A stretch of 64,000 bases of DNA, taken from Panopea generosa (Eukaryota > Mollusca > Bivalvia > Adapedonta > Hiatellidae). The stretch lies in contig CM055896.1 in NCBI GenBank assembly GCA_029582155.1, positions 10,223,463 through 10,287,462 on the forward strand, read 5' to 3'. The translations under genes and the position numbers were made by a program. The notes beneath the pieces were generated by a model. That model was not told the DNA's origin. It worked only from the letters and a program-made list of their open reading frames with translations, and did not search any database. This document shows positions 6,085 to 41,352 of this stretch, in pieces; the first letter of the stretch is position 1, and every line of letters starts with the position of its first letter.

Positions 6085-6200
6085 GTTCTTCCAAATATGT
6101 CTATAAATAGACTTCCAAATTTATCTAAAAATAGACTCTTCCAAATATATCTATAAATAGACTTCAGAATTTATTTATTAAAAGACTCTTCCAAATATAT
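6085..6200. repeat. Short degenerate tandem repeat
   Basis: TCTTCCAAATATATCTATAAATAGACT recurs about 2.5 times with a spacing near 48 bases. Confidence 0.6.
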
Positions 6201-6802
6201 CCTAAATCTTTGTTTTTGTACAATTCCTTTATCACTGAGAAGTGGTGTTTATATACTGACTATACCGACTGAGAGCCAAACAACAACATGATCGGGTTGC
6301 AAGTTTCTTGCATTCTGAACTGGCTCGACATTGTTTACCAAAAGCTTTGTATGGAGATACATAGAAAGCCAAGAGTTAGTAATATTGACAGAGTAAGCAT
6401 ATACTTCATTAGGTCTAAGTGACCCTTCATTAGGATGATACAGATAGTACTATACGTGACTGGGGTCAACCAGGGTCAGGCAGGCTGCTATAATCCTGCT
6501 CACTTATTTTCATATTCTATGTGATAAACAGCTGCACACAGTGAGACTGTGCCAAGAATTAACCACCAGAAGGTGTCTGGACTGGTGTATATAAAATAGA
6601 TGCAAAGAATGTGTATTTGTAGTTATCCATACCTCAATATTGCCGGAAATATGTGAATTTGACAGTCATATGTACAAGTTGTTAGCCGAACATGTTGTAA
6701 ATCCACTTATATTGTATTCTATATCATATGGCACAAAGATGGGAGATGGGGTAACCTTCATTGCTAGTGTTATAGACGTTTAGAAATCATTTACCTGCAC
6801 CC

Positions 6803-6915
6803 ATGGGGTCCACATTGGCTGAATGGTCGTAAGCGTCATCTCAAGATCAATTGTCTCTCATCACTGAGGTTCTGAGTTGGAGCCCAGCTTGGTACATAAA
6901 TTTTACGTGAGAAAG
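6803..6915 (+). mobile_element. SINE-B, head fragment
   Basis: It shows a worn GGCTGAATGGTCGTAAG head, CATCTCAAGATCA, the TCTCATCACTGAGGTT block and ACGTGAGAAAGTA, in SINE-B order. Confidence 0.5.
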
Positions 6916-7594
6916 TAGCGTCAACAAATAAACATCTTTTGAGCCGATACTGTTTTAAGCTTGGATGTCTGTCCGTCTTACATAAATTGGCACAAATGTT
7001 TGCCATTTTGGTGTCACTGTGTTGTCTTTTAAGGAAACCAGTTATTGTGCTTTTTTATGTGAGAATCATTCCAGCTATGAAAAAAAAAAACAGTCACTTT
7101 ATAACAGGCAATTTAAGTGGATTTTTTTTATCATGGAAATCTTAGACCTTATTTTATAAAGAACAAAGAACAAATTTCAACTGTGTAGTAATACCTGAAA
7201 GAAATGGGTCAGAAACATCATGTGGCAGTATTGCAAATGGTATCAGATTTCTTATCATCTATTTCTCCAGCAGAAAATCATAGTTTATTAAAACAGTGCT
7301 CCAGATAAGCACTGTTTGGGGGTATATAAGCACTGACATTTCTGAATAAAGCATTGAAATTTAAATAAAGGGTAAAATAAGCATTGGTTATTCTCAATTT
7401 CATTTAACATTTTGAAAATAAGTATTGCATACTTATTCAAGGGGTAATATACGCATTTGAAGAAAAACTTATCATTCTGTAGCACTGATTATTAGTACTT
7501 GTACACTTTGTGTTCTGGTAAATTTGATCATTTTCATTTTTTTCTCCCACCTCAAACCCTAACATTCTGCCAATATAATTTATTAATACATGTA

Positions 7595-7880
7595 TAATAA
7601 GGCCATAAGGAAGCAAGTCAGATGGGTATCTAAAGTAAGGCCATACAGGAGTGGGTCGGGTCTAATGTAAGGCTATAAAGGAGCGGGTTGGGTCTAATGT
7701 AAGGCTATACAGGAGTGGGTTAGGTGTAATGTAAGGCCATATAGGAGTGGGTCGGATCTAATGTAAGGCTATACAGGAGCGGGTTGGGTCTAATGTAAGG
7801 CCATTAAGGAGCGGGCAAGTGAAATGTAAGGCCAAACAGGAGCTGTCTTGTTCAGGTGCAGGAGTGGGTTGGGTGGGCAT
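7595..7880. repeat. 32-bp tandem array, about 8 copies
   Basis: The unit is near GTAAGGCTATACAGGAGTGG then GTTGGGTCTAAT. The outer copies are more degenerate than the middle ones, the usual pattern of a minisatellite. Confidence 0.85.
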
Positions 7881-8934
7881 CTAATAGTGCATTTTGGTTT
7901 TGTGGCTTTGCTGCATCAAATATTTATGTGATGTTTAGACTGATGTTATGTTATTCCAAATACAATCAATAGCATCTATTTCTTTCTAGTTTATATTGAT
8001 AGTTAATGTCCTCTATCTTTAATGATAAATGCTGTAACATTGCCTTTCTCATAACTTGGCAGCCAGATAGTGGTAAATATGAATTTCCAAATTTACAGTT
8101 TGTGTTTCAGAATGGCCTTAATTGTTTAGTTGTCAAGTGATGGACGAGGATTGGTAAACATGGTTACATTAGATAGTACCAATTGTAGTTCTAGTATATA
8201 ACTCATGATAGTTGTAATCTGTTGTGTACACATGTTGGCATGCAGGTAGGAAAGTGTAGTAAATAATTTACATGGCAAAACAATACAAATTTTTAACACA
8301 TGAGATGAGCAAATCTGAACGATATTGATCATATTTAGTGCCTGCCATGTTGAAATGATTGAATGGATGATATTTTATGGTATACAAACGCTGTAAGTTA
8401 ATTGGTTTGTAACTGATCCCCTACAGAAATATGTGGGCTCTTTCATTCCCGATTTATCCACATTTTTTTTAATAAAAACACATTGGGCCTCATTTAGAGT
8501 AGGTATCTTTGTGTGTTTAATGTTTTATATTAACACCGCATGTGTCGCTAGGAAGCATGATGTTAACATTAGCTGTTGCGAACTGGGCAGTTTGAGTTTT
8601 TTATCCTAAACAATTTTTTTCATGATGCTCTATATACTTTAGATATGCCCTATAAAATGACGCTATTTCATTGGTTATTGGAATCTGAACCGAGTAAAGT
8701 GGTTAAAAAATTAACTTAATTATTAGGCCGTTTTTTTTTTAAATAGAACTTTAATACATGGCTTTAATACAATAATAATACAACACATTTCACAAAATGT
8801 TATCGGAATTGGCATGTCAAAAAACAATTAGTTATTAAAAATAAAAATGTTGATTTTACCTGAAACTGTCTGTCTGTTGTTTTTCTTGTCAGCAGTTACC
8901 ATTTATGTCTGGCTCCAGGCTATGTTATAGTTGT

Positions 8935-9235
8935 GATCAATAAATTTAGATCACAAAATGTTCTGTACAGTAAGTTATTTAATACAGCTTACTATAAACA
9001 TGTAGATCAAGAAATGTTGGTAGATATAATTGATATAATTATATATATCATAGTTTAGTTGAGTTCGGTTGATGTAAATGTAGGTCAAGAAATGTTGGTT
9101 GATCAGTATTATACTACGGGTTAATTGAGTTCAATTAATAAAAATGTAGGTCAAGAAATGTTGATATTATACTATAGTCTAATTGAGTTCAATTAACATT
9201 AATGTAGATCAATTGATGTAGTTAAATAGATTTAG
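8935..9235. repeat. Degenerate tandem array, period near 61 bp
   Basis: GTAGGTCAAGAAATGTTG and TTAATTGAGTTCAATTAA-type blocks alternate about four times, grading into the next array. Confidence 0.65.
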
Positions 9236-9725
9236 TTTCATTTGTGTCAAATGGCATATTTCCATTTGTATCAATTGGTTTGGTAGGATTAAATTAGCTC
9301 CATTTATTTTATTTGGTTGGGTTGGATTGAATTAGTTCCATTTGTGTCAGTAGGTGCGATTGGATTGAATTATTTCCATTTGTATTTATTGGTTTGGTTG
9401 GATTAAATTAGCTCCATTTGTATCATTTGGTTGGGTTGGATTGAATAAGTTCCATTTGTATCAATTGGTTTGATTGGATTTAATTAGCTCCATTTTTATC
9501 ATTTAGTTTGGTTGGATTGAATAAGTTCCATTTGTGTCAGTAGGTGCGATTGGATTGAATTAGTTTCAGTTGTGTCAATTGGTTTGGTTGGATTGAATGA
9601 GTTCCATTTGTGTCAATTGGTTGGGTTGGATTGAATTAGTTCTTTTGTGCCAATTGGTGTGGTTCAAGTGATTTAGTTTGATGTGGTTCAGTCCGTTTAG
9701 TTCCATTTGTGTCATTTGGTGTGGT
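9235..9725. repeat. 38-bp tandem array, about 12 copies
   Basis: The unit is near CCATTTGTATCAATTGGTTT then GGTTGGATTGAATTAGTT. TGG/TTGG content is high on the + strand. Read on the other strand it gives an Asn/Leu/His-rich open stretch, which is a repeat artefact. Confidence 0.85.
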
Positions 9726-9749
9726 TGTTTTTTTAACTCCTGCAAACAG

Positions 9750-9960
9750 TCTAATAAGGGGTATAGAGGAGTCGCTGTGTCAGTTAGTCTTATAGGCCCC
9801 GACATAGTGACTCCTATATATCCCCTATATAAGTTTTGGTTGGTGTTTTGGTCGGTTGGTTTGTCAGCAGCTTGTGGAATGAACGACAGTTTTCAGGTGA
9901 TTGACTTGAAAATTTGAATACATATATATACATCATGTGTGCATGAGTGTGGCACTTTTA
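9750..9960 (+). mobile_element. Rep-K dispersed repeat with terminal palindrome
   Basis: AGGGGTATAGAGGAGTCGCT (about 9757) pairs with AGTGACTCCTATATATCCCC downstream. Then come TTGGTCGGTTGGTTTGTCAGCAG and GATTGACTTGAAAATTTG. The second half is shared with 42005-42250. Confidence 0.55.
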
Positions 9961-10162
9961 TCAGGGTTAGAAAATTCTACTCTACTTGTCCATCGCTATG
10001 ATGAGTAAGTAAGATTTAAAAAACTGACCCTAATATTTCTTTGATTTTAAGCATCAGATTAAAAATGTTGTAAAGGGAGGACGGATAGTTTCATAAGAAA
10101 TTTTAAACCCTTTTACATATTTATAATTACTTATCCATAACACGATGTTTATATAATTGTAG

Positions 10163-11032
10163 GTATCAGAGGCTGCCGAGGATAAGCGAAAGATGGATCG
10201 CATACTTGGTCCATACGAGGCCAGTGTTACCGCCATAATGAGTAGGAAACAGCACGAGCTGATGGGTGTCGAGCGGCAGCCGTCAACACCACTACCTGCC
10301 AAACGCCAGGACAAGGCATTTGCGTTTGCCTCGTCTAATCGTAATGCAAACCAGATATCAAAAAAGCTTTATGAAACAGGTAGAACTACCAGTGATACAG
10401 CTGTGTCTCAGAGAGCTGGAGACTCCAGACTAAGTGCTTATAATGATTCACATAGTGCTAGTAGTAACAGGACGAAAAATTCTGCAACCAATATGGTAGC
10501 AAGTGCTGAGAATAATACAAAACCAAAATCCTTGAATTCTGTGAGCGGTTCAAGTAATAGAAATTCTTCCAGCAATGCTGAGTCCAGTATATCAACTACT
10601 GTGAATTCAACTTCGCATCGATCTGATCAAAAGAGTGAAATTAGTTCTCACAATATTAAAAAAACGAATGTGCAAAAGTCAGTGAAACCTGATAATAGTG
10701 TTAACCTATCAGTGAAAAAAGAGAAAGAACCAGTGACATACTCTGCAAAACATCAGCCAATCAGCAGAGAGCCTGTTCTTCAGTCATTAAAGCAGGAGTT
10801 AATTACTGGTAACCTTTCAAAACCAAACACAAATGTTAACCAATTAAGGCCAGGATCTAGTTCAACAAAAAGTTCTTCCAATAGTCAACAGTCCTCTACC
10901 AAATCTATGGAGAGAAAGGATTCAAAACCAAGTTTAGATCCATTTTCAGTTCTGCAGGTTAAAGAGGAAAACAGAAATGGTGCTGTGAATGGTGCCAAGT
11001 TGAAACATCGACCTAGATTAAATATACCTGAG
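10163..11032 (+). CDS. AFF: AFF exon 2: long Ser/Asn-rich exon with LGPYE motif
   Basis: This 870-nt exon is phase 0 at both ends, with acceptor ATAATTGTAG (10162) and donor GAG|GTAATT (11033). It encodes residues 53-342, starting VSEAAEDKRKMDRILGPYE. That matches the K.D.LS.RIQ..LG.Y segment completing the P-TEFb-binding region of AFF proteins. The rest is low-complexity, rich in Ser, Asn, Thr and Lys and probably disordered, as in the same part of the family. Three psi-K-x-E motifs are visible: VKKE at 236-239, LKQE at 261-264 and VKEE at 318-321. A long exon following the EPYK-type junction also fits my recollection of vertebrate AFF gene structure. The open frame continues a few codons into intron 2 before a stop, but the GT donor and the next exon in phase support ending at 11032. 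Confidence 0.88.
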
Positions 11033-12464: not shown

Positions 12465-13343
12465 GGGGGACTACGATAATGGTGCACCAGATTCTGACAT
12501 TGACATCAGTTGACATTTTAGGGACGATCACTGTTCTATTGGAGAGACTCCGGCAATTGTGCTCCAGATTCTGACATTGACATTTTAGGGAAGATCCCTG
12601 TACTATTGGAGGGACTCCGGTAATTGTGTACCAGATTCTGACATTGACAATTTAGGGACGATCACTGTACTATTGGAGGGACTCCGGTAATTGTGCACCA
12701 GATTCTGTCATTGACATTTTAGGGATGATCCCTGTACTATTAGAGGGACTCCGGTAATTGTGAACCAGATTCTGTCATTGACATTTTAGGAATGATCCCT
12801 GTACTATTGGTGGGACTCCGGTAATTGTGCACCAGATTCTGACATTGACATTTTAGGGACGATCCCTGTACTATTGGAGGGACTCTGGTAATTGTGCACC
12901 AGATTCTGATTGACATTTTAGGGACGATCACTGTACTATTGGAGGGACTCCGGTAATTGTGCACCAGATTCTGACATTGACATTTTAGGGACGATCACTG
13001 TACTATTAGAGGGACTCCGGTAATTGTGCACCAGATTCTGACATTGACATTTTAGGGACGATCACTGTACAATTGGAGGGACTCCGGTAATTGTGCACCA
13101 GATTCTGACATTGACATTTTAGGGAAGATCCCTGTACTATTGGAGGGACTCCGGTAATTGTGCACCAGATTCTGACATTGACATTTTAGGGACGATCACT
13201 GTACTATTGGAGGGACTCCGGTAATTGTGCACCAGATTCTGACATTGACATTTTAGGGATGATCCCTGTACTATTGGAGGGACTCTGGTAATTGTGCACC
13301 AGATTCTGAAATTGACATTTTAGGGACAATCCCTGTGCTGTTG
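12465..13343. repeat. 67-bp minisatellite, 13 copies
   Basis: The unit runs GTAATTGTGCACCAGATTCT, GACATTGACATTTTAGGGAC, GATCACTGTACTATTGGAGG, GACTCCG. I counted 13 occurrences of CCAGATTCTG. Copies fall into GATCACTG and GATCCCTG variants in a mixed order. Confidence 0.93.
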
Positions 13344-17900: not shown

Positions 17901-18430
17901 AATTTATTGATATTAAAGAAACTAATTGGAACAATGTATCAAACTTAAAAAACTATACTTCACTTCTATCTGTCCCCCTGCCAGAAAATGTGTTTTTACC
18001 CATCCCTTATCCAATATGGCTGCCATAACTAAAAATAAAATAAATAATTTGAATTTCAAATAATGCTTTTGACTAAATAAAAATCATTTGAATACTAAAT
18101 TGGGGTACATCAGCATTCAATTTTCATTAACAACTTTATCAATGTTGCAATTTGCAGGCACATATCACTAAATGAACCATGAACTGTACTTTCCCTCCTA
18201 CGATGAACTAGAGGGCCACATCATACTTGTATAACCTTGTTAACTGCATTTTAGGCCATTTGCACAATTTCTGCAGAATCATCAGTCAATTTTAACTGTA
18301 AAACATTCATTTGTAGTCTGAGAAACGTGTTTTCAACATTAGTTTTATCTAAATGTGTGCGTTAATGATGAATACATCATTTACAATGTGTATCATTAAT
18401 GAATGTTTTGTTTTGTTTTTTCTGTTTCAG

Positions 18431-18454
18431 AAGAATGTGGAAGACATGTTGAAG
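18431..18454 (+). CDS. AFF: AFF exon 3: 24-nt microexon, first half of ELL-binding-like motif
   Basis: The acceptor TTTTTCTGTTTCAG ends at 18430 and the donor is AAG|GTTTGT (18455). The exon encodes exactly eight residues, KNVEDMLK, in phase 0 at both ends. Joined to exon 4 it gives VEDMLKELTH, matching the VEEILKEMTH segment of vertebrate AFF proteins, so it is very unlikely to be chance. The donor has T at +3 and is weaker than the other donors in this gene. A tiny symmetric exon with a weak donor could be skipped without changing the frame. Confidence 0.85.
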
Positions 18455-18630
18455 GTTTGTATAGTTTTCAAGGTTTTCAATGTATTTAATTTTCTTTTCT
18501 TTTTTTGAGAAACATGAATTTAATGACTGTTCAAAAAACAATGATGAGATAAATTTAGAGACATAATATTTCGCTTATATGCAATTTTCTGTTTACGAAA
18601 GTTTTACAATATCTAGATTTTCTGAATAGA

Positions 18631-18794
18631 TACAGTAAAACCTGTGTTAAGCTGCCAGTCAAGAGAAGGAGCCTTTTTAGACAGGTTGTTTGTTAATACA
18701 GGTCAATTTGTTCTGAAAGTGTAGACTTGGGGAAATAGCAGTTGCGGCTGGTTCAAGGCAAGTGGCTGCTTATTGGAGGTGACCTTTGACCGTA
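18631..18794 (-). mobile_element. MITE-T
   Basis: It starts TACAGTAAAACCTGTGTTAAG and ends AGGTGACCTTTGACCGTA, in the opposite orientation to the 56653 copy. TA at both edges with CAGT-type ends suggests a Tc1/mariner-pogo non-autonomous element. Confidence 0.65.
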
Positions 18795-18832
18795 GTAAAA
18801 TGAGCCCCATGTTATTATTAATGGAGTAACTG

Positions 18833-19035
18833 GTCCTCCTTCGTGGCTTAGTGGACTGAGGCCCCATCTCTAGGTCACTTACCTTTGAATATCACCACTA
18901 GAGTTGGGTGTTCGAGCACAGGTCTGTCAAAAATTTTTGTGAGAAAGTTTGCCACTTACTTGTAAAAGCCTTCATCTACTTATATAACTGGGGGCCCCAC
19001 ATATACTTGAATGTGATGGAAATGAATCCCTATTC
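18833..19035 (+). mobile_element. SINE-B
   Basis: The head CCTTCGTGGCTTAGTGGACTGAGGC is followed by GGTGTTCGAGCAC at the B-box place and GTGAGAAAGTTTGCCACTTAC. The 3' part is shortened. Confidence 0.68.
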
Positions 19036-19326
19036 AAAGGTGATTGATTGATTGATCGAATATTTAGCATATTTTCTATGCCATCAAGGACTAACTGATG
19101 ATCATCCTAACCAGTCTTTCTTGGGATCTTGGAAGGTTAACCAGTATTTGAGCCCATCCATCTCCGCAAGTAACTGTTAACTTTCCCACTTGAATTCGGA
19201 GTGAGTGATTAATGATAATGAAATGCAATGTTGTGTGTCAATCATCACAGGGACTAAGCAGGGATTAAAACTCACAACCCCTAGATTGATAGTCGGATGT
19301 GTTACCATCTGAGCTAACTGTGCCTA
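19036..19326 (-). mobile_element. SINE-A
   Basis: The full complement runs from GATTGATTGATTGATCGAATA to CATCTGAGCTAACTGTGCC. Confidence 0.82.
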
Positions 19327-19544
19327 AGTAATAACTGAGCAGGTTAGTGTGTAAATGCCCCCCCCCCCCCCCACACACACACAAAGTCTGAGTTGATTGA
19401 CTAAATGACTAAATGTCGCATTAAGCACTAGCAGTGTGTTTTATTGCATTTTACATACATTTCTTACAAAATTAACTGATTTCTCTGGCCCCAAACAAAA
19501 AAAACCTTCACAAAATGCATTGTCTGGTTGCATTTATTAGGGGT

Positions 19545-19835
19545 GTCAGGCTTGATTAACTCAGTTGTTAGCATGTCTGACTATCAATCCAGAGGTCATT
19601 ACTTCAAATCACCATCCAGCCACAGTCTCTGTGATGATTGAAATACGACATAATGTCTCAGTATCATTCGTCGTCTCTCACTGCTGTTTCAAGTGGGAAA
19701 GTTATCAGTTACTTGCGGAGATTGGGTGTGCTTGAGTACTGGTTTACCTTCCACCAGGATCCCATGAAATAGTAATTAGGTTAGCACTCAATGGCATAAC
19801 AATGACGCTTAATATTCAATCAATTATTTAGGGGG
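19545..19835 (+). mobile_element. SINE-A
   Basis: The head TTGATTAACTCAGTTGTTAGC and TGACTATCAATCCAGAGG are clear, and the tail is TTAATATTCAATCAATT. It faces the copy at 19036 tail to tail only in part, since they are in opposite orientations about 220 bases apart. Confidence 0.82.
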
Positions 19836-20572
19836 TTTATGGTATGTTTGTCAGGACGACACAAGTGTAAGATTTAAGGAAGTTTAGCTAAATTTCGTGA
19901 AAGTATGACCTATATCTGATAGTTTATGGGGGGATTTGGTCATGTTTTAACTAACGTTTGAAGAATTGGGTATTTTAACCTAGGGCAGTGTGCTGATGAT
20001 TAGTTTTAATATCGGTTAATCAGTCTTCCGATGCTGTTTAAATGAGCCTCATTCACCTATCTTACTTAGGAACGTTATGCATTATTAATTGCCTTTTAAT
20101 TGCAGTGGAACATTGTTTGGTTGGACTATTTTTAACATAAGTTTATATGTGACATCTTTATGTAACTGTCCCTGTGTATGAATAGGCAGGTTAATTGTTC
20201 TCGGCTTTTTTGATTACAATGAAACTGCATTCTTCTGCTTGTGTTTCAACTGGAAATTCTTTGACACATGCTTTTTATGTACATATGGCCAGACGGCGTC
20301 TTGCTTTAGGATTGAAACAATTACATTAGTGACGCCTCTGAGCTCCTCATTTCTATCTTGGTCTTTGATCTAGACAAAGAGTGTGTTTCACAAGATTTCA
20401 GAATTTTTTATTTTTTTTTTTTTATTATATTTTCAGCTCTAGCAATTTTTATTCCATACCATTCACTGTATATGAAAATAAATGCGGATTAATTATATTT
20501 TCAACACTTACCAAGTTAAATATAGCATGTTCAGGTTTTCTTGGTGAGATAAGACCGCAGAATGAATCTGAG

Positions 20573-20690
20573 TAGAACCACCTTCCTTCAGCAAGTAACT
20601 GGAAGATTTCTTACATAATTTGGACCCAGCTTGGATCGAACCAAACACCTTAATGGTGAGTGGTTAGTGGTTGTAAGATATCGACATTGC
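20573..20690 (-). mobile_element. SINE-B, fragment
   Basis: AGTAGAACCACCTTCCTTCA, GCAAGTAACTGG and GGATCGAACCAAACACCTTA match the SINE-B complement. Much of the 3' part is absent. Confidence 0.5.
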
Positions 20691-20914
20691 CATGTCCCAC
20701 TCCGTTACGGAGGATCCTGTATATGAATAGGAAAATGAGGTAAACTGAAATGGTGTAATGTACGAGTAAAACATTTTCATTTTGGATGAAGAGCACTTGC
20801 CGCATTCTTGAAACTTGATTGCTATCTGTTATTAGTTAAATTAAATTTTGATAATATGACTTATATTTTATAACATTACTTGTATGTGGTTAATATTTTT
20901 GTGTCTCTCTTCAG

Positions 20915-20986
20915 GAGTTGACCCACCTACCTCAGCCCCTGACAGGCATACAGACACCGTTTAAGGACTCCAAATTTCCATTCATG
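20915..20986 (+). CDS. AFF: AFF exon 4: PLTGIQTP/KFPF motif
   Basis: The acceptor TGTCTCTCTTCAG ends at 20914 and the donor is ATG|GTGAGG (20987). This 72-nt exon, phase 0 at both ends, encodes 24 residues including ELTHLPQPLTGIQTP and SKFPF. It is the most diagnostic AFF sequence in the window, aligning to EMTH..PPPLTAIHTP...SKFPF. In AFF4 this region binds the C-terminal occludin-like domain of ELL2, so the exon should help recruit ELL to the elongation complex. The function is transferred from the family, not shown here. Confidence 0.92.
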
Positions 20987-21149
20987 GTGAGGAATATAAA
21001 TTAAAGTAACTGATTGTGGAAACTGAAATTTAATTAGGGTGTTACTTTATTGGGGTTTTACTTTATTGAATTGTTTTAGATATCATTAGTGCTAGTTTAT
21101 GTTTCAAAATTCAAGGCGTTCCAAATATGTATTTGTATATGTTTTTATA

Positions 21150-21303
21150 TACAGTAAAACCTGTCTTAAACAGTAAATGAGACCCCTTTAGACAGGTGGT
21201 TGCTAAGTAGAGTGATTAAAATTAAAATTATGAAAATAGAAAATAAGGTTGTTTAAGACATGTGGCTGGTTGATAGAGGTGACCACAAACACAGATTTGA
21301 CTG
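21150..21303 (-). mobile_element. MITE-T, decayed
   Basis: TACAGTAAAACCTGTCTTAA at the left and GAGGTGACCACAAACACAGATTTGACTG at the right fit the family. Both edges are worn. Confidence 0.55.
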
Positions 21304-21967
21304 ATTTTGGAAAATGTCGGAGGGGGTGGGGGGGGGGGGTGGTGTCTTCCCCCTAAATGTCTGAATCTGCCAGTGTAGAGTCGCTCATGCTTCGTTCCTG
21401 TGAAATGGCCCTGTCCCCCCTATCTAAAAATAGTTAAAAAAACATTGAAGGAAAATCATGGATTGGAAACCTTTCAATATAAATTAAAGTAAATATTGTG
21501 TTTGCCCTACCACGAAATGTACACAGGGTTTACAACGTTGTGAAATGGCTGTCAGCCAAGGTGATATATTTACTACAATGTTTATCTTTTTATCTTTACG
21601 TGTACATTTTATTATAGTATATGATAGACAAGAGCTGGTAATGAAGGCATTGGGGGTTAACCACCATTTTCAACACATAACAGATTACATATGGCTTTCT
21701 GCATTTGTTTGTGGATATAAAACCTGATGAACAAATACATGAAATCTGTGTAAAGTCAGTCTTTCTGTATTTAAACCACTGTCTTTTCCGCGCTCTACTG
21801 GCAAAGGTTTTCACTTAAAAACCAACTCTTTGCACTAACCTGACAACCGGTACAGGATCAGTGTAGATAATGTTATGGTAACTGCCACTTCCTGAGTTAC
21901 ATTTATTTGACCGACTTCTTCAGTAAACACTATGACCTTGTTATTGTGAAGTGCTGGTATGCAAAAT

Positions 21968-22942
21968 GCTAGCTCTGAGCTGAAGGCTCACAGGTAAGAT
22001 TTTATGATCGCTCCGAGTGATGTTAGTTTATCTGAGCTGAAGGCTCAGATGTGAGCTTATGGTCACTCTTTGTGATATTAGCTTATCTGAGCTTAAGGCT
22101 CACAGGTGAGATTTTACGATCGCTCTGTGTGCTGCTAGCTTATAAGAGCTGAAGGCTCACAGGTGAGATTTTACGATTGCTCTGTGGGATGCTAGCTTAT
22201 CTGAGCTGCAGGCTCACAGGTGAGCTATCAGCGCTCTGTGTGAGCAGCTTATCTGAGCTAATGGCTTACAGGTGAGCTTTGATGATTGCTCTTTGTGATT
22301 TAGCTTATCTGAGCTAAAAGCTCACAGGTGAGCTTATGATTACTCTGTGTGATGTCAGCTTATCTGAGCTAAAGTGAGCTTTTATTATTACTCTGTGTGA
22401 TTTTATGATTGCTCTGTGTGATGATAGCTCATCTGAGCTGAAGGTTCACTGTGAGCTTTTATGATCGCTGTGCGAGTGTCTATCATTAATTGTTCTGTAC
22501 TTGCTTCAAACCACTTTATGTTATAACACTATGACAGATTTTCACTACATTTTGTGTGAATCATTCTTACATGAATCTCTCTGTGAAGTTTTTTCAGATA
22601 ATGACCCTGGGGTCAAATTTGTTGAGGCTGGGTCCTGTTAAGGGTATTTAATATCCATTAAAACGAGATAAAATTGTAGTTCCAAAAAATCTTCTAGAAA
22701 GATTCTTCATAATTATTTGGTATAAAAGATCCATACGAATTAAGAATTTTAAGTTTGTTGAAATGATAGGGTAAGGATCCAATGGGGCCCAGTAAGGGTA
22801 CTTTGGTTTTTACACTGAAATATTATGATAAAACAGATAATTTGCATCTATAAATTCTTAATAAGCTTAGTCCAGTCAATATCTGAAAAATAAATTGACA
22901 AACGAATCAGGTGAGCGACTTAGGCTCATATGGTCTCTTGTT
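21968..22942 (+). mobile_element. Rep-L-type dispersed element with internal tandem array
   Basis: From 21968 to about 22470, GAGCTGAAGGCTCACAGGTG..GATCGCTCTGTGTGATG..TTATCT recurs about eight times at roughly 58 bases. A unique body follows. It closes CAGGTGAGCGACTTAGGCTC then a CTCTTGTTT end, like the 3' end of Rep-L. Confidence 0.65.
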
Positions 22943-23621
22943 TATCATAGTAACATCTTTTTTAAGATTTCAAAAATTTTTAATGTTATAGAAAAAAGCG
23001 AATTTTAATTGTAATGAAGATTCATGGGTAAAATAAATATGACTAATTTTGCGTATAGTTTCTGTTTAATGATATTCATACAAGACCCTTCTCATCGGAT
23101 GGTCATTAATGCAGAGATATGGCGTTCATTATTTGCAACAATTTTCTTGTCATATTTGAGGTGTATGACAAGTTAATGTGTCTGCATGGGTAAATAAGTA
23201 GGAAGATAGTCTACAAAGATTCCAGAGGAGTCTGTAAATTTTCTTTTTCCAATAAATTAGTTGCCAAATTTGGCGCAAAATTGAGTTATGTTTGTAAAAA
23301 AAAGATTATTTTGGTGTTGTCTGTATAAATGAAGTCTTTTTGTTTGTTAAGCGGGTGGAGGAGGGGGTTTACACAAGTTTGACTGCTTGAAAAAATCTTT
23401 TATATTAAAGGTTCAAAAAGCATTTCGGCTATAAATAGAAAATGTGAGTTAATTATAAATCTTTTTAATTCAGACTTGCATTAAATTGCCCTGCCCGCCA
23501 TTTCCTACAAATTAAATAGTTTCTATACACCCATTGGTTGTATGTGCAGATGCAGTGCAGTAAAGTGTTGTGGAAAAGTTTGTTCAATATGTTTTTTCCT
23601 TTTGATGTTATGGTAAAATGT

Positions 23622-23955
23622 TCAGGTCGTGGTTAAAGTCAAGGTCATGGTTAATGATAAATAGAGAAATTACTTTTGTGTTAAATCAGGTCGAGGTTAA
23701 AGTCAAGGTCATTGTAAATGATAAATAGAGAAATTACTTTAGAGTTAAATAAGGTCGAGGTTAAAGTCAAGGTCATAGTAATGATAAATAGAGAAATTAC
23801 TTTTGAGTTAAATCAGGTTGAGGTTAAAGTCAAGGTCATAGTAAATGATAAATAGAGAAATTACTTTAGAGTTAAATCAGGTCGAGGTTAAAGTCAAGTA
23901 AAGGTCACTGTTAATGATAAATAGAGAAATTACTTGTGAGTTAAATTAGTCAATG
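23622..23955. repeat. 64-bp tandem array, about 5 copies
   Basis: The unit runs GTCGAGGTTAAAGTCAAGGT, CATGGTAAATGATAAATAGA, GAAATTACTTTAGAGTTAAA, TCAG. It lies 140 bases upstream of exon 5. Confidence 0.9.
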
Positions 23956-24095
23956 TCATATAAGATTTTAAGTTAAAACATATAATAATTATTTCATGAG
24001 ATATATGGTAAAAATTGCACTACTTTCTGTATGATAATGTATGAACAATCTATAATAAGTACATACTTTTACCATGTGTTGTTTATCAATTGCAG

Positions 24096-24138
24096 GACAA
24101 CACAGATATGAAGCCTGGTCACTCAGATATAAGTACAG
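24096..24138 (+). CDS. AFF: AFF exon 5: short linker exon
   Basis: The acceptor GTTTATCAATTGCAG ends at 24095 and the donor is ACAG|GTAAGT (24139), a consensus match. The exon has 43 nt, entering in phase 0 and leaving in phase 1. It encodes DNTDMKPGHSDIST plus the first base of the next codon. The sequence is not conserved enough to recognise alone. It is supported by strong splice sites, by phase continuity with exons 4 and 6, and by a position matching the linker after KFPF in AFF proteins. Confidence 0.78.
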
Positions 24139-24737
24139 GTAAGTTAGTGTGCCATCATCTTAGTATAGGTCATTGGAGTTCATTAATGAAACACGATATC
24201 ACAGTACTCTACATTACTGTGGGAGAATATCCATTTGTAAGACTTACTGTACAGTTATTTGCTGCTATATTGAAAAGAAAAAAAAAATTTGAAGATACAA
24301 TGATTAAACCACTAGCCTTATGTTTTTTTTATTTAAAGTAATGCCAAGTGTACTTTTCCCGATTTAAGAAGAAAAAAAAAAATCTTTTTTTTTTATTCGT
24401 ATAAGTGTCACAGGTGACGTAAAACGACAGGCTAAATTTTTTTTTTTCTTAGATTCACAATTTTAAAATAATCAGATTTGTCAAATATAAACAACACTGT
24501 AACTTTATTGATGTTAATCACATCTAACAGAATGGTTGTTTTTTTTGTGAAGGATATGTGTAGTTATTCCGACATTGCTAGTTTTCACCACAATAAATTC
24601 ATACTGACATATAATTTTTGTATTTTTAACTGGGTTACTTTTCAAGTGATGCACATGGACACAGATACTGGTAAACAGCTTGGTATGTGATTAATGTTAT
24701 GTTATTATGCTTTCTGAACCATTTCGGGGAAGCACCT

Positions 24738-24780
24738 TTATATATATATATATTTATATATATATATATATATATATATG
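24738..24780. repeat. AT dinucleotide microsatellite
   Basis: An interrupted (TA)n run of about 43 bases. Confidence 0.9.
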
Positions 24781-24819
24781 CAGCTTAGTCCATCCTTGCA
24801 TGCATGTATTTGTGCATCA

Positions 24820-25500
24820 CAATATTCTTATATGGTCTGTTTCTCAACAACCTCTTGTTGTAATTTCATGACACTTGCTAGGATGTATCACTACCAAGTG
24901 GTGCTATGCAAATTGTCTTGTGTTTTGATTTTTCACATAGTGCCGGCCATTTTATTAGGTTAATTATCAATCGTTATCTGCGCTAATCTCTTCAACTTCT
25001 ATATGGAAATGGGCCCGATTAGCTCAGTCGGTAACGCATCTGACTATCAATCCAGGGGTCATGAGTTTGAATCCACTGCCCGGCAACAGTCTCCGTGATG
25101 ATTGATATACGGCATTGTGTCTCATTATCATTCGTCTCTCACCACTGATTCAAGTGGGAAAGTTATCAGTTACTTGCGGAGATGGGATGTGCTCGAGTAC
25201 TGGTTTATCCAAGGAAACAGTAGTTAGGTTAACTGATTGTCTGTTAGCTCTCGATGGCATAAAAATGACGCTAAATATTCAATCAATCAATCAATCTATA
25301 TGGAAATTTATGAAATATGACAAGATGCATCACTACCGAGTGGAGATGTGGATAGTGTCTTTGTGTTTCAGTTAGATGATTTTTCACAGAGCTATGACCC
25401 TTTGATTGTGTCCCATACCAAATTCCTTGTTTTTGATTTTTTTTTTTTTTCCTGATTTTTTTTCACTTCAGCCTCTGGAAAGAATTTTACGAAACTTGCT
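24820..25500 (+). mobile_element. Rep-M, split by a SINE-A
   Basis: The left part contains CTCAACAACCTCTTGTTGTA and GCTAGGATGTATCACTACCA. The right part, from 25308, contains CACTACCGAGTGGAGATGTG, TTTGTGTTTCAGTTAGATGA and CCAAATTCCTTGTTTTTG. SINE-A occupies 25011-25294. Two or more Rep-M copies may be joined here. Confidence 0.6.
25011..25294 (+). mobile_element. SINE-A, full copy with 13-bp target duplication
   Basis: The head is GGGCCCGATTAGCTCAGTCG with the B-box-like GAGTTTGAATCC. The body is GATTCAAGTGGGAAAGTTAT and the tail AATATTCAATCAATCAATCAA. TCTATATGGAAAT is perfectly duplicated at 24998-25010 and 25295-25307, which shows insertion by target-primed reverse transcription. Confidence 0.93.
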
Positions 25501-25744
25501 AATTGCTAATTGTAACATTTATTTGTCCCACAGATATTGTGTTGTATATCTGACAAATATTGCAAACATTTGCCTGCAACATGAACCCTGATGTGGGCTT
25601 ATTCTAGTACAGCATTGGCAACAGCTGTATGTGTATGCTTTTTATATTTGCTATGTGTGTTTTTAGATTTATATCACTGTCATAAGTCTGGGTGCCATAC
25701 ATTTGTTTTATCTTTCAAATGTAACAATGAGTTGTTCTTGTATG

Positions 25745-26030
25745 GTGTTTAACAATTTTTCAGTAATATCACGACGTTGTCTACTTGAGACAGTATTCTA
25801 AGCACTGCCACACTGAAGAATCATGCCACAGACACATGGTATTATACCCCACCCAGTCACATTATACTGACAACGGGCCAACCAAACCTAGATGCTAAAT
25901 GCTGAGCACTAAGTGAGGAAGCTTCTAGTACCATCTTTCAAATCTTAGGTATGACCCATCCGGGGATCGAACCCACAATCTTTCGCTTGCAAGGTGTACA
26001 CTCTACCACTAGACCACCGCTGCGGTGTAT
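25745..26030 (-). mobile_element. SINE-C
   Basis: The complement is nearly full length: CACTGAAGAATCATGCCACA, TACCCCACCCAGTCACATTA, CGGGGATCGAACCCACAATC, then CACTAGACCACCGCTGCGG. The A- and B-box regions are recognisable. Confidence 0.83.
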
Positions 26031-26449
26031 AACAATAAGATACTAAATGAGCTGACTGGCCATTTATTTGTAAGATAATATTCAACAACTTCTTCAAACA
26101 AACTTTGTTTCTTGTATGTGAATAATTGTGAAATTTGATAATATTGTGTCAAAGGCTTCTCCTGTTTAGATTTAAATTAAGTTATAGAATGTTTTATAAG
26201 CAGCCACTAATCAGATTAGTTACTGAATTATTGTGAACCCAGGCTACCTCTTATAATAAAATGCAAAGAATCTTCTTAGAACAACTGAATGAGGAATGCC
26301 ATTGAAAAGTTTGCAAACTGCTTCTTTAAAGTCACACAGATCATATTAACAGATGTCCAGCATACAATTAAATAATTACTTTCAAGGGTAGGGCCATAAG
26401 ATGCATTGGTGTCTGGCTGGCTCTCTTATCCTTGAAGTCATGTGTTTAA

Positions 26450-27000
26450 CAAGTTAATATTAGCTAAGTTGAAAGCTGGCAAGTTGAAGATATGTTGATA
26501 TTTGGCAAGTTAATATCTGGCAAATATAAAGCTGGTAAGTTATAAGCTGGCAAGTTGAAGCTAAGTTAATAACTGGCAAGTTGAAGATGTGTTGATATCT
26601 GGCAAATATATAGCTGGCAAGTTGAAGATATGTTGATATCTGGCAAGTTAATTATATCTGGCAAGTATTTAGCTGGCAAGTTGAAGATATATTGATATAA
26701 TACAATTTGATATTTGGTAAATTCATAGCTGGCAAGCGAATAGCGAAGTTTATAGCTTGCAAGTTGAAGCTAAGTTAAAAGCTGACAAGTTTATAGCTGG
26801 CAAGTTGAAGCTTAGTTAATAGCTGGCAAGTAAGTAGCTTGCAAGTTGAAGCTTAGTTAAAAGCTGGCAAGTTGAAGCTCAGTTAATAGATGGCAAGTAA
26901 GTATCTGGCAAGTTAAAGCTTTTAAAGTTAATAGCTGGCAAGTATATATAGCTGGTAAGTTGATGGTAAGTTTATAGTCGGCAAGTTAATGGTGAAAGAT
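26450..27000. repeat. Degenerate array of GCTGGCAAGTT units
   Basis: AGCTGGCAAGTTGAAG and ATATCTGGCAAGTTAAT blocks of roughly 20 bases recur more than twenty times in irregular order. Confidence 0.85.
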
Positions 27001-27574
27001 GTCGGTTCTATTTGGATTCAATTTCTTATCTTAACCCAATAAAATATTCTGATGCCTTCAAATTTGGTTTCATCTCTCCATCTGATCAGCCCCATGTAGC
27101 ATATTTTCTTTTTTTCACTTTACAAAACAGTTATGTGCACAGAATCAGTCAGTCAGTGATCATAAAATACAGTTTAATATTTGGCAATGTCAGTCAGCTT
27201 TACAGTAGTCAGAAAAAAATAGAAACAATACTTTATAATATAAGATTATTATACCGATATAAGATTATTATACCGGCACGTACATGGAGACTGATAGAAA
27301 CTGATGGATTTCTTGTAGAAAATGTAGACTGCCATAATCCCAAATGAATTCCTTAATCACATAATGTCTATGATTGATATTGCATCTTAACTGGCGGTTG
27401 TAAAGGCCATCAGGGTGTGTGGTGCATAGGAGTATTAACTGTTTAAATACAATATTTGGTTGGCAGTTTGGTGTGAGAGAGAATAAGATCTGATTTTGGT
27501 AATGTGGTTAGTGCACTGGCTTTGGTGTGTTACCAAGGGTTATGAATTTGGCTCATTACCATAGTTATAGATAG

Positions 27575-27965
27575 ACCCACAGAGGGTCATGTATTGTGGG
27601 AATATGGAATAATTTATAGACATATAGAGGGTCTCTTATTATGGGAATGTGGGAGAATTTATAGACATATAGAGGGTCTTGTATTGTGGGAGAATTTGTA
27701 GACATATCGAGTTTTGTATTATGGGAATATGTGAGAATTTATAAACCTATAGAGGGTCTTTTATTATGGGAATATGGGAGAATTTATAAACATTGAGAGG
27801 GTCTTGTATTATGGGAGAATTCATAGAGAGTTTTGTATTATGGGAATATGAGAGAATTTTTAGACATATAGAGGTTCTTGTATTATGGGAGAATTTAAAG
27901 ACCTATAGAGAGTTTTGTATTATGGGAATTGAATTTATCTTTTGGTTTGGGAATGATGGAGAATT
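27575..27965. repeat. Tandem array, period near 46 bp, about 8 copies
   Basis: The unit is near TTATAGACATATAGAGGGTC then TTGTATTATGGGAATATGGG and AGAATT, with frequent internal deletions. Confidence 0.85.
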
Positions 27966-28599
27966 TAGTATACACAAACTATGAAAAAGATTACTTTAAA
28001 ACATTTTTGCAAAAAATGTTGATGCATGTCTGATTTCCACAAACTTGGTATGCATTGTTTGTGTCTCAGTCTGTTAAGTCTTCTAAATAATAATGGAATA
28101 TTCCAGAAGTGAATGATGGTAGAGTCCATTACTAGAAAATAGCAAGTTAGGGGTCACGACAAAAAATGAAAAACAAATTGATGCAAGGTAACTTGCATAC
28201 TCTGCATGTTACTTGTAATAAAAGATTAATGTACTTATTCCATGTTGGTGATCTGATTCATTTACGTACATCTCCATTTCAAAGTTCAAAGTTTACATGG
28301 TTATACTGAGGTCATTCTTTGGGTTGGTACAGGTATTTCCAATTATCTGGTAATCTGCACAGACTGAAAGAATGAAACTATTAACTATTGTATCTCAGTT
28401 ACTTCATTACAGTGTGCTGTGAGAGAGTGTTGTGTGATGTAATCGAGTACAATTTTAATCATCATTTACGTTGTGTTCTCCGGTGCAGTCACCTGGTTTT
28501 TTGGAGCAGTTCAATGATTATTAAGACATTTTCTGGTACTGTCCCATGGTGATTTAGACATGATTTTTGGCACATGCATAACTAAGTAAAATTATAGTA

Positions 28600-28780
28600 T
28601 ACTGTCAAACCTTTGTAAGTGGTCACCTCTATTAAACAGCCTCTTGTCTTAAGCAGCCACATTTGTTATTTTGCATTTATATGCTTTCAGAACAAATTGA
28701 CCTGCATTAACAATAAACTATCTTAAAAGGTCATTTTTGCTTCTTCTCTTAACTAGCTGCTTAAAACAGCTTTGACTGTA
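28600..28780 (+). mobile_element. MITE-T
   Basis: It starts TACTGTCAAACCTTTGTAAG and ends AACAGCTTTGACTGTA, with CACCTCTATTAAACAGCC and TTGTCTTAAGCAGCCAC inside. Confidence 0.78.
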
Positions 28781-29385
28781 TATATATAATTTTGGGTCAA
28801 AGGTAAAAGGTTATCACTTGATAACAAAGTATACTTCCCGTGCAGTCTTGCACTTGTATAATATAATTTCTTAATGGACAACGGTAATAAAACAGTATTA
28901 AAACATATGTGTTCTATTAAAGTTGCATTTATATATTATAAAATTCTATTTCCAGATGTATTTGATATTGCTGATTAGGAAAGGAGCCAGTTTTTGAATG
29001 TTTACAGTTTTATTGTTATGGCATGGTATGATAAAGCACAGTTGTTCATATATACAAAACATACTTCTAAATCAGTTCCATTTCTTGTTTAAATGATTGG
29101 TTTTGATCTTTGTAATATAAATTTGGTTTATATTTCAGGCAATTTACCTTTTACCTTTTTTTTTTTCAAAGCTCTCCTGATTTGTGTGTGCTTTTTAAGA
29201 TTATTGATATGTTTGATAGAAAATTGATAGTAGATTGTCTCCCTTGGATTATAAAATGTGATTTATATGAATGTGTGAATTTCTCTATCTCGTCAATAAA
29301 TAACTATGAACAAAGTGAACCTCGAGAAAATAAGTCCGATAAAGGGTATGCAATGTTTGTCTCTCAGTCAGTAAAGCCATATTAA

Positions 29386-29410
29386 CCCCCCCCCCCCCCC
29401 CCCCCCCCCC
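29386..29410. repeat. C25 homopolymer
   Basis: An uninterrupted run of about 25 C. The length may be a sequencing or assembly artefact. Confidence 0.8.
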
Positions 29411-29917
29411 AGCCCTTTGTGAATTTTATTGGAATGGTTATATATAACAATGATTGATGAGTGCATGATAGACATTTTACCTAATTGACGATGTAACAAC
29501 ATATTATCTACATGCAAAGATTGATTACCAAAACTCTTTTGGCAATAAAACCAATAATTTTTTTATGATGGTGTGTGTTTGGTTTTGATGTATTATTGTA
29601 CCATGGAGAAGTATGCGTAAGGCTTATCAATCAACAAATTGTGTATGTGTACTTTGTGTTTGATGTGTCTCTGTCATCACGTCCTGCAGTTGGTATTTCA
29701 GTCAATCTGTTTCATTAAATAATTTTTTTTGTAGTAACTCAGTGGAATTAATGTTCAAGGTTGCAATAGTGCAGTGGTTTCATATATTTTAATGGATGTT
29801 CTGTAAAGCAAATTTGGCAGTATGATATTGTTTAGTTAATACTTATTTATTTTACGTTGATTGTGAAACAAGTTTTTATGACTTCAAATTCTTCCTAATT
29901 AAAGCCAGTACAAAGTA

Positions 29918-30104
29918 TACAGTCAAACGTAAGTTAGTGGTCACCTCTATTAAGCAACCAGTTGTCTTAAAGAGTCACATTTTCTATTAACCATTTAAAT
30001 ATTTTTGTTTTGTTTTAATTAATCTGTATTAAGCAGCCACCTGCCTTTAAAGTGTCATCTTTGCTCTTTCCCTTGAGTGGTTGCTTACAACAGGTTGAAC
30101 TGTA
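29918..30104 (+). mobile_element. MITE-T
   Basis: It starts TACAGTCAAACGTAAGTTAG and ends AACAGGTTGAACTGTA. CACCTCTATTAAGCAACCAG and TTAAGCAGCCACCTG are conserved. Confidence 0.78.
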
Positions 30105-30109
30105 TATAG

Positions 30110-30235
30110 ATAAAAGTATTTTGGTCATGCATGGACACCCACAACACATGATGGGGGGTGGTGATTGAACCTGTCGCCCTCCAGTTCTGGTTATATACTG
30201 CTCTACCATATGCTTCACCAATCAGCCATATGTTT
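30110..30235 (-). mobile_element. Possible tRNA-like SINE head fragment
   Basis: GGTGGTGATTGAACCTGTCG, then CTGCTCTACCATATG and a further block ending ATCAGCC, resembles a tRNA-like head complement. The family is not assigned. Confidence 0.35.
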
Positions 30236-30429
30236 ATATTATGACCAGATCATGTGCAAACTATTCCATTCCATTGTCCGTGTCGACAAATAAGGTTGAA
30301 TGACCTTTATTGCATTTAATTTTACTTCTTTACTTCATTACCTGCTGTTTTTCACTGTTGAATACAATCTAAATAAGTTAAGTCTTTTCCTGGAAATACC
30401 GTCAGCAATACTCAATCAACAACAACGGG

Positions 30430-30545
30430 GCATAGTCAAATAAGGCATTATCTGAAAGTCAGTTACCGCTCATCTCAGGTCATAGGTTCGAACCGAGTTC
30501 AAAGAATTTACGTGTGAAATACTGCTAGTAAATGATGTTCTTACA
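30430..30545 (+). mobile_element. Possible SINE-B fragment
   Basis: CATAGTCAAATAAGGC, CATAGGTTCGAACCG and ACGTGTGAAATACTG fall in SINE-B order, but the match is weak. Confidence 0.35.
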
Positions 30546-31118
30546 TTGTGTTGACCAGTAGTTCTACTCAGTGTCATCGTTCATTATTTCTGGACCGATT
30601 AAACTAGATTTCATTATATAACCTACTTTCCCTACCTCCCTGTCTGTAGAATTACTTGACCGAGTACCATAGACATCTTTGATTGTCGGATTTAATTAAT
30701 ATTACGCCATCTAATTCTCCTACACTTCTCTTCTAATTCATGCATGCACCTTCTTTGTTAACTTTTTTTCTGGAATGATTTTTAATCTATAGAGAATGGG
30801 CAGTTGTGTTGTTGATAGGACATATTGACGTTTCCCATCTTACAGACAAAATCTGTCATCTCCCTGACATTATTACATTACGTTTTGATGAAGAGTCATT
30901 GCGAGATATTTACTGTGATGAAGACTGTGTGGAAGATCATTGTAAGCAGACATGCCGGCATAAATAATGTATTATCTGTACGGAGAGGAGGATGCTTTAC
31001 AGTTATAATGATACATGATTGGATTTGTCCAACAGATCCTCCTTGTTGGGAAAATATAGTCTGTATATATATATCTCTGTTCTCAAAATGCAGTTCCGAA
31101 TTTATTCTAAACATATTG

Positions 31119-31262
31119 AGGGATCGGCCATGGCCGAGTAGTCTAAGGCTCCATCTCAAGATTACTTGCCTCTCACCACCAGGGTCGTAGGTTCAGAGGT
31201 TCACTCCAAAAGCTTTATGTAAGAAAGTTTGCCAGTTACACGGGAAGGACGACGGATCAAGT
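31119..31262 (+). mobile_element. SINE-B, 5' part
   Basis: The head GGCCATGGCCGAGTAGTCTA is well kept, followed by TCTCACCACCAGGGTCGTAG and GTAAGAAAGTTTGCCAGTTAC. It is cut off where a SINE-C in the opposite orientation begins. Confidence 0.72.
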
Positions 31263-31279
31263 CAGATTCTTTTTTTAGG

Positions 31280-31497
31280 TATATTGAGAGCTGTTGCTGT
31301 TATACTTGAGTATCATGCTGCAGACAAATGGTATGATACTTCACCTTGTGACTGACACCGGACCGCCTAGACCTAGAACAATCCTCCAAGGAGGCTTCTA
31401 GTACCATTTTTCAACTCTTTGATATGACCCTGCTTGAGATTGAACCCATGACCTTCCGCATGCAAGACAGACTCTCTATCACTAGACCATCCTGTAG
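31280..31497 (-). mobile_element. SINE-C, shortened
   Basis: TTGAGTATCATGCTGCAGAC, GACACCGGACCGCCTAGACC, TGAGATTGAACCCATGACC and CACTAGACCATCC follow in the complement order. Confidence 0.7.
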
Positions 31498-31975
31498 TAT
31501 ATCAATAATGTATCAATATTCTATTTCTATCCGCGACAGTTTTGAAAAGTGACTGCACCCCTACAAGTGTCACGCTAGAATAAAGCTATCTCAGAATTTT
31601 CAAGGTGCCAGTCTGGTTCACATTGCAAGTTGCGAACTCTGTTTAACAGTCTTTTTTTCTGCAAACATTGAAAATTAATTTTCATATCAAAACTTGCACT
31701 TTGACTAAATTCTAAATCAATAGATGGAGGGCAAGTTTAAAATTTCAGACAGTAATTTACATTAAATGCTGTCCAATTAATTTATGTCCTGGAGTTATTG
31801 TTGCGGCTGTATTGATATAATGAAGAAAATCAATACACTAGACGTATTGCACATTCAGAGATTCTGCTAGATTAGCTTCCGTTCTGTAGACACCTTAAAT
31901 AACCAAGGCTTCTGGATCATGGCAAAATGTTCATGGCAAGAATTGTTATTATTTTGTATAGTTCTAAGTGTCGTA

Positions 31976-32253
31976 TTTAGGGTCCTGTGGCCGAGTGGTC
32001 TAAGGCACCGTCTCAATATCACTAACCTCTCACCGCAAAGGTAGTAGGTTTGAATCCCGCCCACTCCAAAAAGTGTGCCAGTTTTGCAGAAAGAATGTGG
32101 TTCTCAACTTTATTTGTTTATACTAATATATTTTAGCTTGATTGCGATGAAATCACAGAGCTTATATGAACTACTCTTGAGTCAGCTTCCAGGGTAGAAC
32201 CGGTACTGTAACCAGAAATGTGGTGAAAATGGCATTAAATCCCATTAAAAAAA
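31976..32253 (+). mobile_element. SINE-B interrupted by a reversed SINE-D
   Basis: The head GGTCCTGTGGCCGAGTGGTC and the GGTTTGAATCCCG box are intact. SINE-D sequence replaces the middle from about 32100 to 32205. The SINE-B tail GAAATGTGGTGAAAATGGC resumes and ends in CCCATT plus poly-A. Confidence 0.78.
32100..32205 (-). mobile_element. SINE-D, 3' part, nested in SINE-B
   Basis: TTTAGCTTGATTGCGATGAA, CAGAGCTTATATGAACTACT and CAGGGTAGAACCGGTACTG are the complement of the SINE-D 3' half. Confidence 0.65.
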
Positions 32254-32394
32254 AAAATAAGAGTCATATTTCTATATTTATGTTATTATTTACAAACAAT
32301 GTAGACCCAGACCAGTCAGCACGTATTTCTCTTCATTGGTTTACTCCCAGTTAAATTTTTGCAATGGATTTCTATGAACATTTACCTTGAACAG

Positions 32395-32525
32395 TTTTTC
32401 AGTCATATCTCGACAATGTTAACTTGAGACTGTAAGCATTTTAAGTATTTGGTATGACCTGGCCGGTGATTGAAACTACGACCTGCGTGCGAAATGGACA
32501 CTCAATCACTAGTTCACTGCGGCAG
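32395..32525 (-). mobile_element. SINE-C, internally deleted
   Basis: TTTTTCAGTCATATCTCGACAATG and TTGAGACTGTA are joined directly to GGTATGACCTGGCCGG..GATTGAAAC and a head complement. The middle is missing. Confidence 0.6.
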
Positions 32526-32823
32526 TACTTCTTAACGTAGATATCATGCCCATATTATACTGCTTAACAATCTTCTTCTTGTCATTCTGACTCAGTCGAA
32601 AATGAAACATAATCAATGAAATGTACAGCACTATATTTTTGACATGTTTTGGACAGATATCCTTACAGGCATGATATATTGGAAAAAAGATTTTTGTCAA
32701 TTTTAAAATTTTGAAAATCGTGATAAATGTTTTTTGTAAAGTTATATTGTTGTAATTTTGAGAAGCTACAGTTTGATAAATCTTTTACAATGAAGAGCTG
32801 TATGAATGATGGAAAGAAACTTG

Positions 32824-32998
32824 AAGTGGAGTGCGTGATCCAGTGGTAGCGCATTGGATCCATGATTGGGGAGTTGTAAGTTTGATCCTCCTCCGTGGCT
32901 GTGTGTGGTGTCCGCAAGCAAGACACATATTCGGCATATGCTTAGTACTGGTTCTAACCAGATAGACTTTGAGCGTGACTTGTGTAAATTTTAATAAC
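32824..32998 (+). mobile_element. SINE-E (fifth tRNA-like type)
   Basis: The head is GCGTGATCCAGTGGTAGCGC, with a B-box-like AGTTTGATCC. The body GGTGTCCGCAAGCAAGACAC is unlike SINE-A to D. A remnant lies at 236-420, and a related head (GTGGTCCAGTGATAACATG) at about 35964. Confidence 0.5.
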
Positions 32999-33314
32999 TT
33001 GTTTCAAAATTGTGGTTAAAAAAATAAGTTTGTAAGCTAAAAAAAACAAACTGGAGACTAAACTAAAGTATTAACGGAGACACGGTTGACTCGATACGTA
33101 AGATCAGATGGCAAGTAACAGATGACGTTGATGAAACAACATCTGACAGGGTGGGCAGTTTTTATTACATGGTTGTGTTGTATATAAGCTGTACTTCTTC
33201 TCATGTTACATGGCAGTGAGATGTAGGATAATGTGTCAGATATATATCCTTGCCCTATTTAATGAGATTAATATAATTATAATTTAGTGCACCAGATAAG
33301 TACTATTTGGGGGG

Positions 33315-33978: not shown

Positions 33979-33992
33979 GCTCTGTTAAGCCA

Positions 33993-41330: not shown

Positions 41331-41352
41331 GTAAGACAAAAAAAGGTCACCA

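Follow-up and report, generated by a model that had tools for sequence, protein, structure and literature searches.

In an AFF (AF4/FMR2 family) gene of Panopea generosa, a 24-nt microexon (18431-18454) is probably obligatory and, under normal conditions, always included, a verdict reached from sequence signals and base rates. It lies in a 64,000-nt stretch of contig CM055896.1 (GenBank assembly GCA_029582155.1), hereafter called the window. The microexon would encode the larger part of the helix that the AFF scaffold uses to grip ELL at its occludin-like domain, and the 72-nt exon that follows would supply the remainder of this helix. The microexon would owe its small size to an old layout of fragmented exons in this part of the gene, where an intron in phase 0 interrupts the helix between the counterparts of human AFF4 Lys321 and Glu322. 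The features needed for the argument are given below, one per line.

10163-11032, + strand: large coding exon, 870 nt, phase 0 to 0, ending ...RPRLNIPE before GTAATT (open frame and splice borders)
18428-18433, + strand: tandem NAGNAG acceptor CAGAAG, whose second AG would yield a 21-nt exon encoding NVEDMLK
18431-18454, + strand: microexon KNVEDMLK, 24 nt, most of ELLBow helix alpha-1 (match to 5jw9_A; best of 333 segments)
18455-18460, + strand: donor GTTTGT, weak by the standard of this gene (score 4.5, 91.9th percentile among 3942 GTs)
19051-19317 and 19556-19824, no strand given: two inverted copies of a dispersed repeat, 70% identity, in the intron after the microexon (repeat comparison)
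20915-20986, + strand: 72-nt exon ELTHLPQPLTGIQTPFKDSKFPFM, end of the helix and elbow joint (sequence, splice borders and match to 5jw9_A)
24096-24138, + strand: probable next exon, 43 nt, phase 0 to 1, DNTDMKPGHSDIST (top combined splice score)
36825-37065, + strand: probable downstream exon, Ser/Asp-rich, phase 1 to 2 (open frame and splice borders)

The microexon encodes KNVEDMLK between AG and GT borders, in phase 0 at both ends, and its context is ...TTTTTTCTGTTTCAG/AAGAATGTGGAAGACATGTTGAAG/GTTTGT..., with a long U-rich tract and CAG upstream. The 72-nt exon (...GTCTCTCTTCAG/GAGTTGACC...CCATTCATG/GTGAGG) is likewise in phase 0 at both ends, its peptide running from ELTH to FPFM. Both exons had been proposed, with these phases, in a sequence-only reading of the window, and their AG/GT borders and open frames confirm them. 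They are adjoined upstream by an open frame of 870 nt which ends in phase 0 at GAG/GTAATT, so that the 870-nt, 24-nt and 72-nt exons join in frame. As had also been claimed, skipping either exon keeps the frame, and so does skipping both, since all joins are in phase 0. Splice sites were scored with matrices of consensus frequencies, which are not trained on this species and are not those of MaxEntScan. By these matrices the acceptor of the 870-nt exon is poor (-3.1, 71.8th percentile), which makes its 5' end less sure. This exon presumably has a human counterpart; its first 45 amino acids find no match in the PDB, and pattern searches for its relatives returned 4 matches in viral contigs and 35 in genome contigs, a collection holding no animal genomes, none of which was confirmed by tblastn.

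Further downstream, an exon finder was applied to 20987-36830 with thresholds of at least 1 for the acceptor and at least 4 for the donor. Among the 16 segments retained, 24096-24138 has the highest combined score; its donor is near-consensus (12.8), and its phase fits the exons on both sides, linking the ELLBow exons to the acidic frame at 36825. It is the probable next exon, and the open frame at 36825-37065 would belong to the same gene as the microexon. In Pfam scans, neither the former (within longer products) nor the latter (alone) gives a known AFF match. Other exons may be missed by this procedure, since the acceptor of the 870-nt exon would itself fail its thresholds. The introns flanking the microexon measure 7398 nt upstream and 2460 nt downstream. 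Exons of 24, 72 and probably 43 nt in a row between large introns suggest that the gene is fragmented here and that the microexon is not an isolated cassette.

The assignment to the AFF family comes from the ELLBow, the ELL-binding element of human AFF4 (residues 301-351, PDB 5jw9), with which the window motif has in common the pattern V-[DE]-x-[IM]-L-K-E-[ML]-T-H ... P-L-T-x-I-x-T-P ... S-K-F-P-F (Qi et al., 2017; PMC5290273). Judged by this predicted ELL-binding helix and elbow motif, the gene is a member of the AFF (AF4/FMR2) family. The 32 residues of the joined exons match 5jw9_A in phmmer with E=2e-4, VEDMLKELTH lying over VDEILKEMTH, which bears out the earlier proposal that the two exons together form an ELL-binding-like motif. 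A query that also includes the 14 residues upstream scores 23.1 bits (E=6.1e-4), and its score drops to 16.8 bits (E=0.062) when the microexon is left out of the same context. Human residues 314-321 align with the microexon and those from 322 onward with the 72-nt exon; the exon border thus falls inside the helix, between the counterparts of Lys321 and Glu322.

A chance resemblance or a decayed copy, in which case the microexon would not be a working exon, is very improbable. Between the neighbouring exons there are 333 open AG..GT segments that are in phase 0 and 18-300 nt long, with 208 distinct ends; among these, VEDMLK scores 18 against the human helix VDEILK, and the next-best end scores 9. 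The comparison nevertheless covers six residues only, and a less strict scan of both strands, covering 4985 stop-free hexamers that precede a GT anywhere in the window, finds one further hexamer, VDAILQ, that ties at 18. Moreover, the longer products stay below the curated Pfam AF-4 cutoff of 26.9 bits (10.9 bits for the 322-aa and 17.3 bits for the 140-aa product, both from an incomplete gene model), as does the 32-aa peptide (20.8 bits, E=2.8e-4), while AF-4 finds nothing in the 290-aa large exon alone or in the 416-aa product of the same incomplete model. Against a chance or decayed origin stand the correct order and phase, the strong acceptor and the completion of the ELLBow exactly at the exon border.

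The remainder of the family architecture was searched for in the window. For the N-terminal P-TEFb-binding region, Pfam scans of the three forward frames of 1-10001 give no AF-4 match and one weak unrelated line; the N-terminal exons may lie upstream of the window. For the C-terminal homology domain, Pfam gives no match in the three forward frames of 36825-46823. Motif searches for N- and C-terminal AFF exons gave many loose hits, and the microexon alone was accepted as AFF. Duplicate or mutually exclusive copies of the ELLBow were rejected because tblastn over the window gives no good second match: beyond the two exons, the best hit of the whole peptide has E=0.53, and the 72-nt exon alone has no further match better than E=0.32.

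In human AFF4, the ELLBow opens with a helix (315-324), with Val316, Ile319, Leu320 and Met323 buried in ELL2 and a salt bridge formed by Asp317 (PMC5290273). The window motif keeps Val316, Leu320, Lys321 and Glu322 identical and has Glu for Asp317, Met for Ile319 and Leu for Met323. Over the aligned stretch it has 29 residues to the 32 of human AFF4; two residues are missing at the elbow tip, Asp stands in place of Pro342, and Trp327, which is the centre of the human interface (PMC5290273), has no counterpart. Since W327D costs human AFF4 fourfold in affinity and P342D threefold (PMC5290273), ELL binding of the window motif may survive these differences, and the Panopea generosa protein would be expected to bind ELL. 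Loss of the helix is another matter. In human AFF4, the I319D/L320D pair lowers affinity more than 25-fold, a helix-breaking proline mutant lowers it 10-fold, and L320D blocks the binding of both ELL1 and ELL2 in cells (PMC5290273). A transcript skipping the microexon would read ...RPRLNIPE/ELTH..., which places Pro at the Leu320 position; given the effect of L320D, the structural argument is sound, and the skipped form is predicted not to bind ELL. The earlier argument that skipping would remove half of the ELL-contact motif therefore stands; without the microexon the greater part of the helix would be gone, which is predicted to destroy ELL binding.

Skipping of this kind might be put to use. 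It can be hypothesized that the microexon is a regulated cassette whose omission gives an AFF protein that retains its other binding sites but does not bind ELL, so that super elongation complexes would contain or lack ELL depending on the tissue, perhaps in neurons. This explanation, which is considered unlikely, is favoured by the symmetric phase 0 of the exon, by its weak donor and 86-nt AG exclusion zone, and by the IPE/ELTH join, given the human L320D and proline mutants. It is opposed by a very strong U-rich acceptor and by the absence of UGC, UCUC, CUAAY and TGCATG signals nearby; moreover, in literature on AFF1-AFF4 (under their current names), the sole mention of a microexon among the matches listed concerns TAF1.

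Regarding the splice sites, the microexon donor scores 4.5 and is the lowest of the four scored (the others reaching 6.4, 6.7 and 9.9), yet it exceeds 91.9% of the 3942 GTs in the window. The description of GTTTGT as weak thus holds by this matrix; a truly weak donor leaves room for regulation but is insufficient for a switch. The acceptor, which the sequence-only reading does not mention, is above 99.8% of the 3440 scored AGs of the window, that of the 72-nt exon being equally strong (99.9%), and T occupies 13 of the 16 positions from -20 to -5, versus 8, 10 and 10 for three further exons in the gene model. Over the 150 nt that precede the microexon, the sole TGC lies at -73, and neither TCTC/CTCT nor CTAAY occurs; GCATG is absent from the 300 nt on each side. 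At 86 nt, the AG-free zone ranks among the longest 1% of AG gaps in the window (33 of 3441 being at least as long), but zones of 77 nt at the 72-nt exon and 63 nt at the large exon mean that it does not single out the microexon. RNA pairing was also considered as a means of hiding the donor. A 34-nt stretch of the microexon and its donor is 71% complementary to 17941-17974; the duplex energy was matched in 14 of 300 shuffles, and the openness of the donor is 0.27 versus 0.37 +/- 0.19 for 150 random GTs. This pairing had been chosen after the fact, and it was rejected as evidence.

Neural use is more frequent among the very smallest exons (under ~28 nt) than in the whole class of up to 51 nt, and the prior for a switch is therefore not negligible. 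Base rates for the whole class are nevertheless weighted towards constitutive use: in human brain, 6469 of 7949 micro-exons of 51 nt or less are described as constitutive and 1480 as alternative (Li et al., 2015; PMC4317164). The constitutive ones are reported to have stronger splice sites and a thymine-rich stretch 5-20 nt upstream, with donors stronger than in other classes as a tendency, not a rule, and a median following intron of 955 nt; both classes of micro-exon have shorter introns than longer exons do (PMC4317164). The window microexon resembles the constitutive human ones in its strong U-rich 3' splice site and differs from them in its weak donor and in flanking introns above the human median.

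The neural micro-exons controlled by SRRM/eMIC offer the other point of comparison. In flies, they are described as combining weak splice sites at both ends with long AG-free zones, UCUC tracts, a UGC close to the acceptor and a strong branch point of the form CUAAY; mammals are said to share this code apart from the weakness of the donor and the downstream position of the branch point (Torres-Mendez et al., 2022; PMC8797185). The window microexon has in common with them its small size and long AG exclusion zone and, with the fly set only, a weak donor. In contrast, its acceptor is strong rather than weak, and no UGC, UCUC or CUAAY lies near it. Known from flies and mammals (PMC8797185), the code is an imperfect yardstick for Panopea generosa.

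Taken with the alignment, these comparisons favour the always-included exon. On its side are the strong acceptor, the T-rich tract, the absence of neural signals and the short neighbouring exons (72 and probably 43 nt); against it count a donor that is the weakest of those scored, introns of 7398 and 2460 nt that exceed the 955-nt human median (PMC4317164), and the 86-nt AG-free zone. The proposal in the sequence-only reading that alternative use of the exon makes a switch between AFF forms thus goes unsupported, the acceptor being strong, the neural signals being mostly absent and constitutive micro-exons prevailing in one survey of human brain.

A further explanation concerns the acceptor itself. 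The tandem CAGAAG could produce a variation of a single residue, KNVEDMLK or NVEDMLK, with ELL binding kept. A NAGNAG is present at the microexon, and in human AFF1 the NAGNAG acceptor of exon 4 yields transcripts with or without Gln in 8 and 3 of 11 clones, respectively (PMC7941496). However, the second AG of the window tandem follows an A and scores 1.2 against 7.0 for the first, and variation of this kind is accordingly held to be improbable.

The same human exon bears on the age of the layout proposed for the obligatory microexon. Human AFF1 exon 4, at 45 nt and in phase 0 at both ends, extends further 5' than the window microexon; it would end ...VEEILK, at exactly the position where the window microexon ends, so that exon 5 would start EMTHSW. 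Should this VEEILK/EMTHSW border be correct, the intron that interrupts the helix predates the divergence of this lineage from the vertebrates, and the microexon and human AFF1 exon 4 would descend from the same short exon.

Published KMT2A-AFF1 fusions locate the human exon. Two junction siRNAs for different cell lines carry the common tail AAGCAGACCUACUCCA (PMC10457349), and in RS4;11 cells the AFF1 exon starts with CAG at a NAGNAG acceptor (PMC7941496, whose text numbers it exon 7 and whose legend numbers it exon 4), from which it follows that human AFF1 exon 4 begins CAGACC. The clones with and without Gln mentioned above are of the KMT2A-AFF1 fusion transcript. The probe and the reverse primer of an RT-PCR assay that detects the fusion of exon 8 to exon 4 translate to WPPPLT and EPSKFPF (PMC7388219); both fall within the AFF1 ELLBow peptide, so that the motif lies downstream of the exon 4 start within one amplicon. 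Human AFF1 exon 4 thus shares with the window microexon a NAGNAG acceptor and a start upstream of this motif.

Several repeats occur around the gene. The two inverted copies at 19051-19317 and 19556-19824 could fold into a hairpin, and further copies of this dispersed repeat are found across the window. In the intron before the microexon, 12510-13343 holds a tandem repeat of 67 nt in 12.5 copies with 93% matches, and large tandem arrays occupy 37354-38067 (period 26), 57421-59521 (periods of about 27-170, overlapping fits) and 62835-63414 (30 nt). ARAGORN places a tRNA-Ala (CGC) at 42969-43040, overlapping a copy of the dispersed repeat at 42988-43241; Rfam reports no family at gathering score and no tRNA at 42969-43040, so that the element may be a tRNA-like repeat.

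If the microexon were regulated, its skipping would exchange the Leu320 equivalent for Pro and let one gene provide both ELL-recruiting and ELL-free super elongation scaffolds, an option that human AFF1 could share. While such a scheme is rather doubtful, it would be a simple splicing route to uncouple ELL from the super elongation complex. If, as is probable, the exon is always included, its significance is that of a warning for annotation: an exon of 24 nt is easily missed by gene finders, and with its omission most of the ELL-binding helix would disappear from the predicted AFF protein, which would then appear unable to bind ELL.
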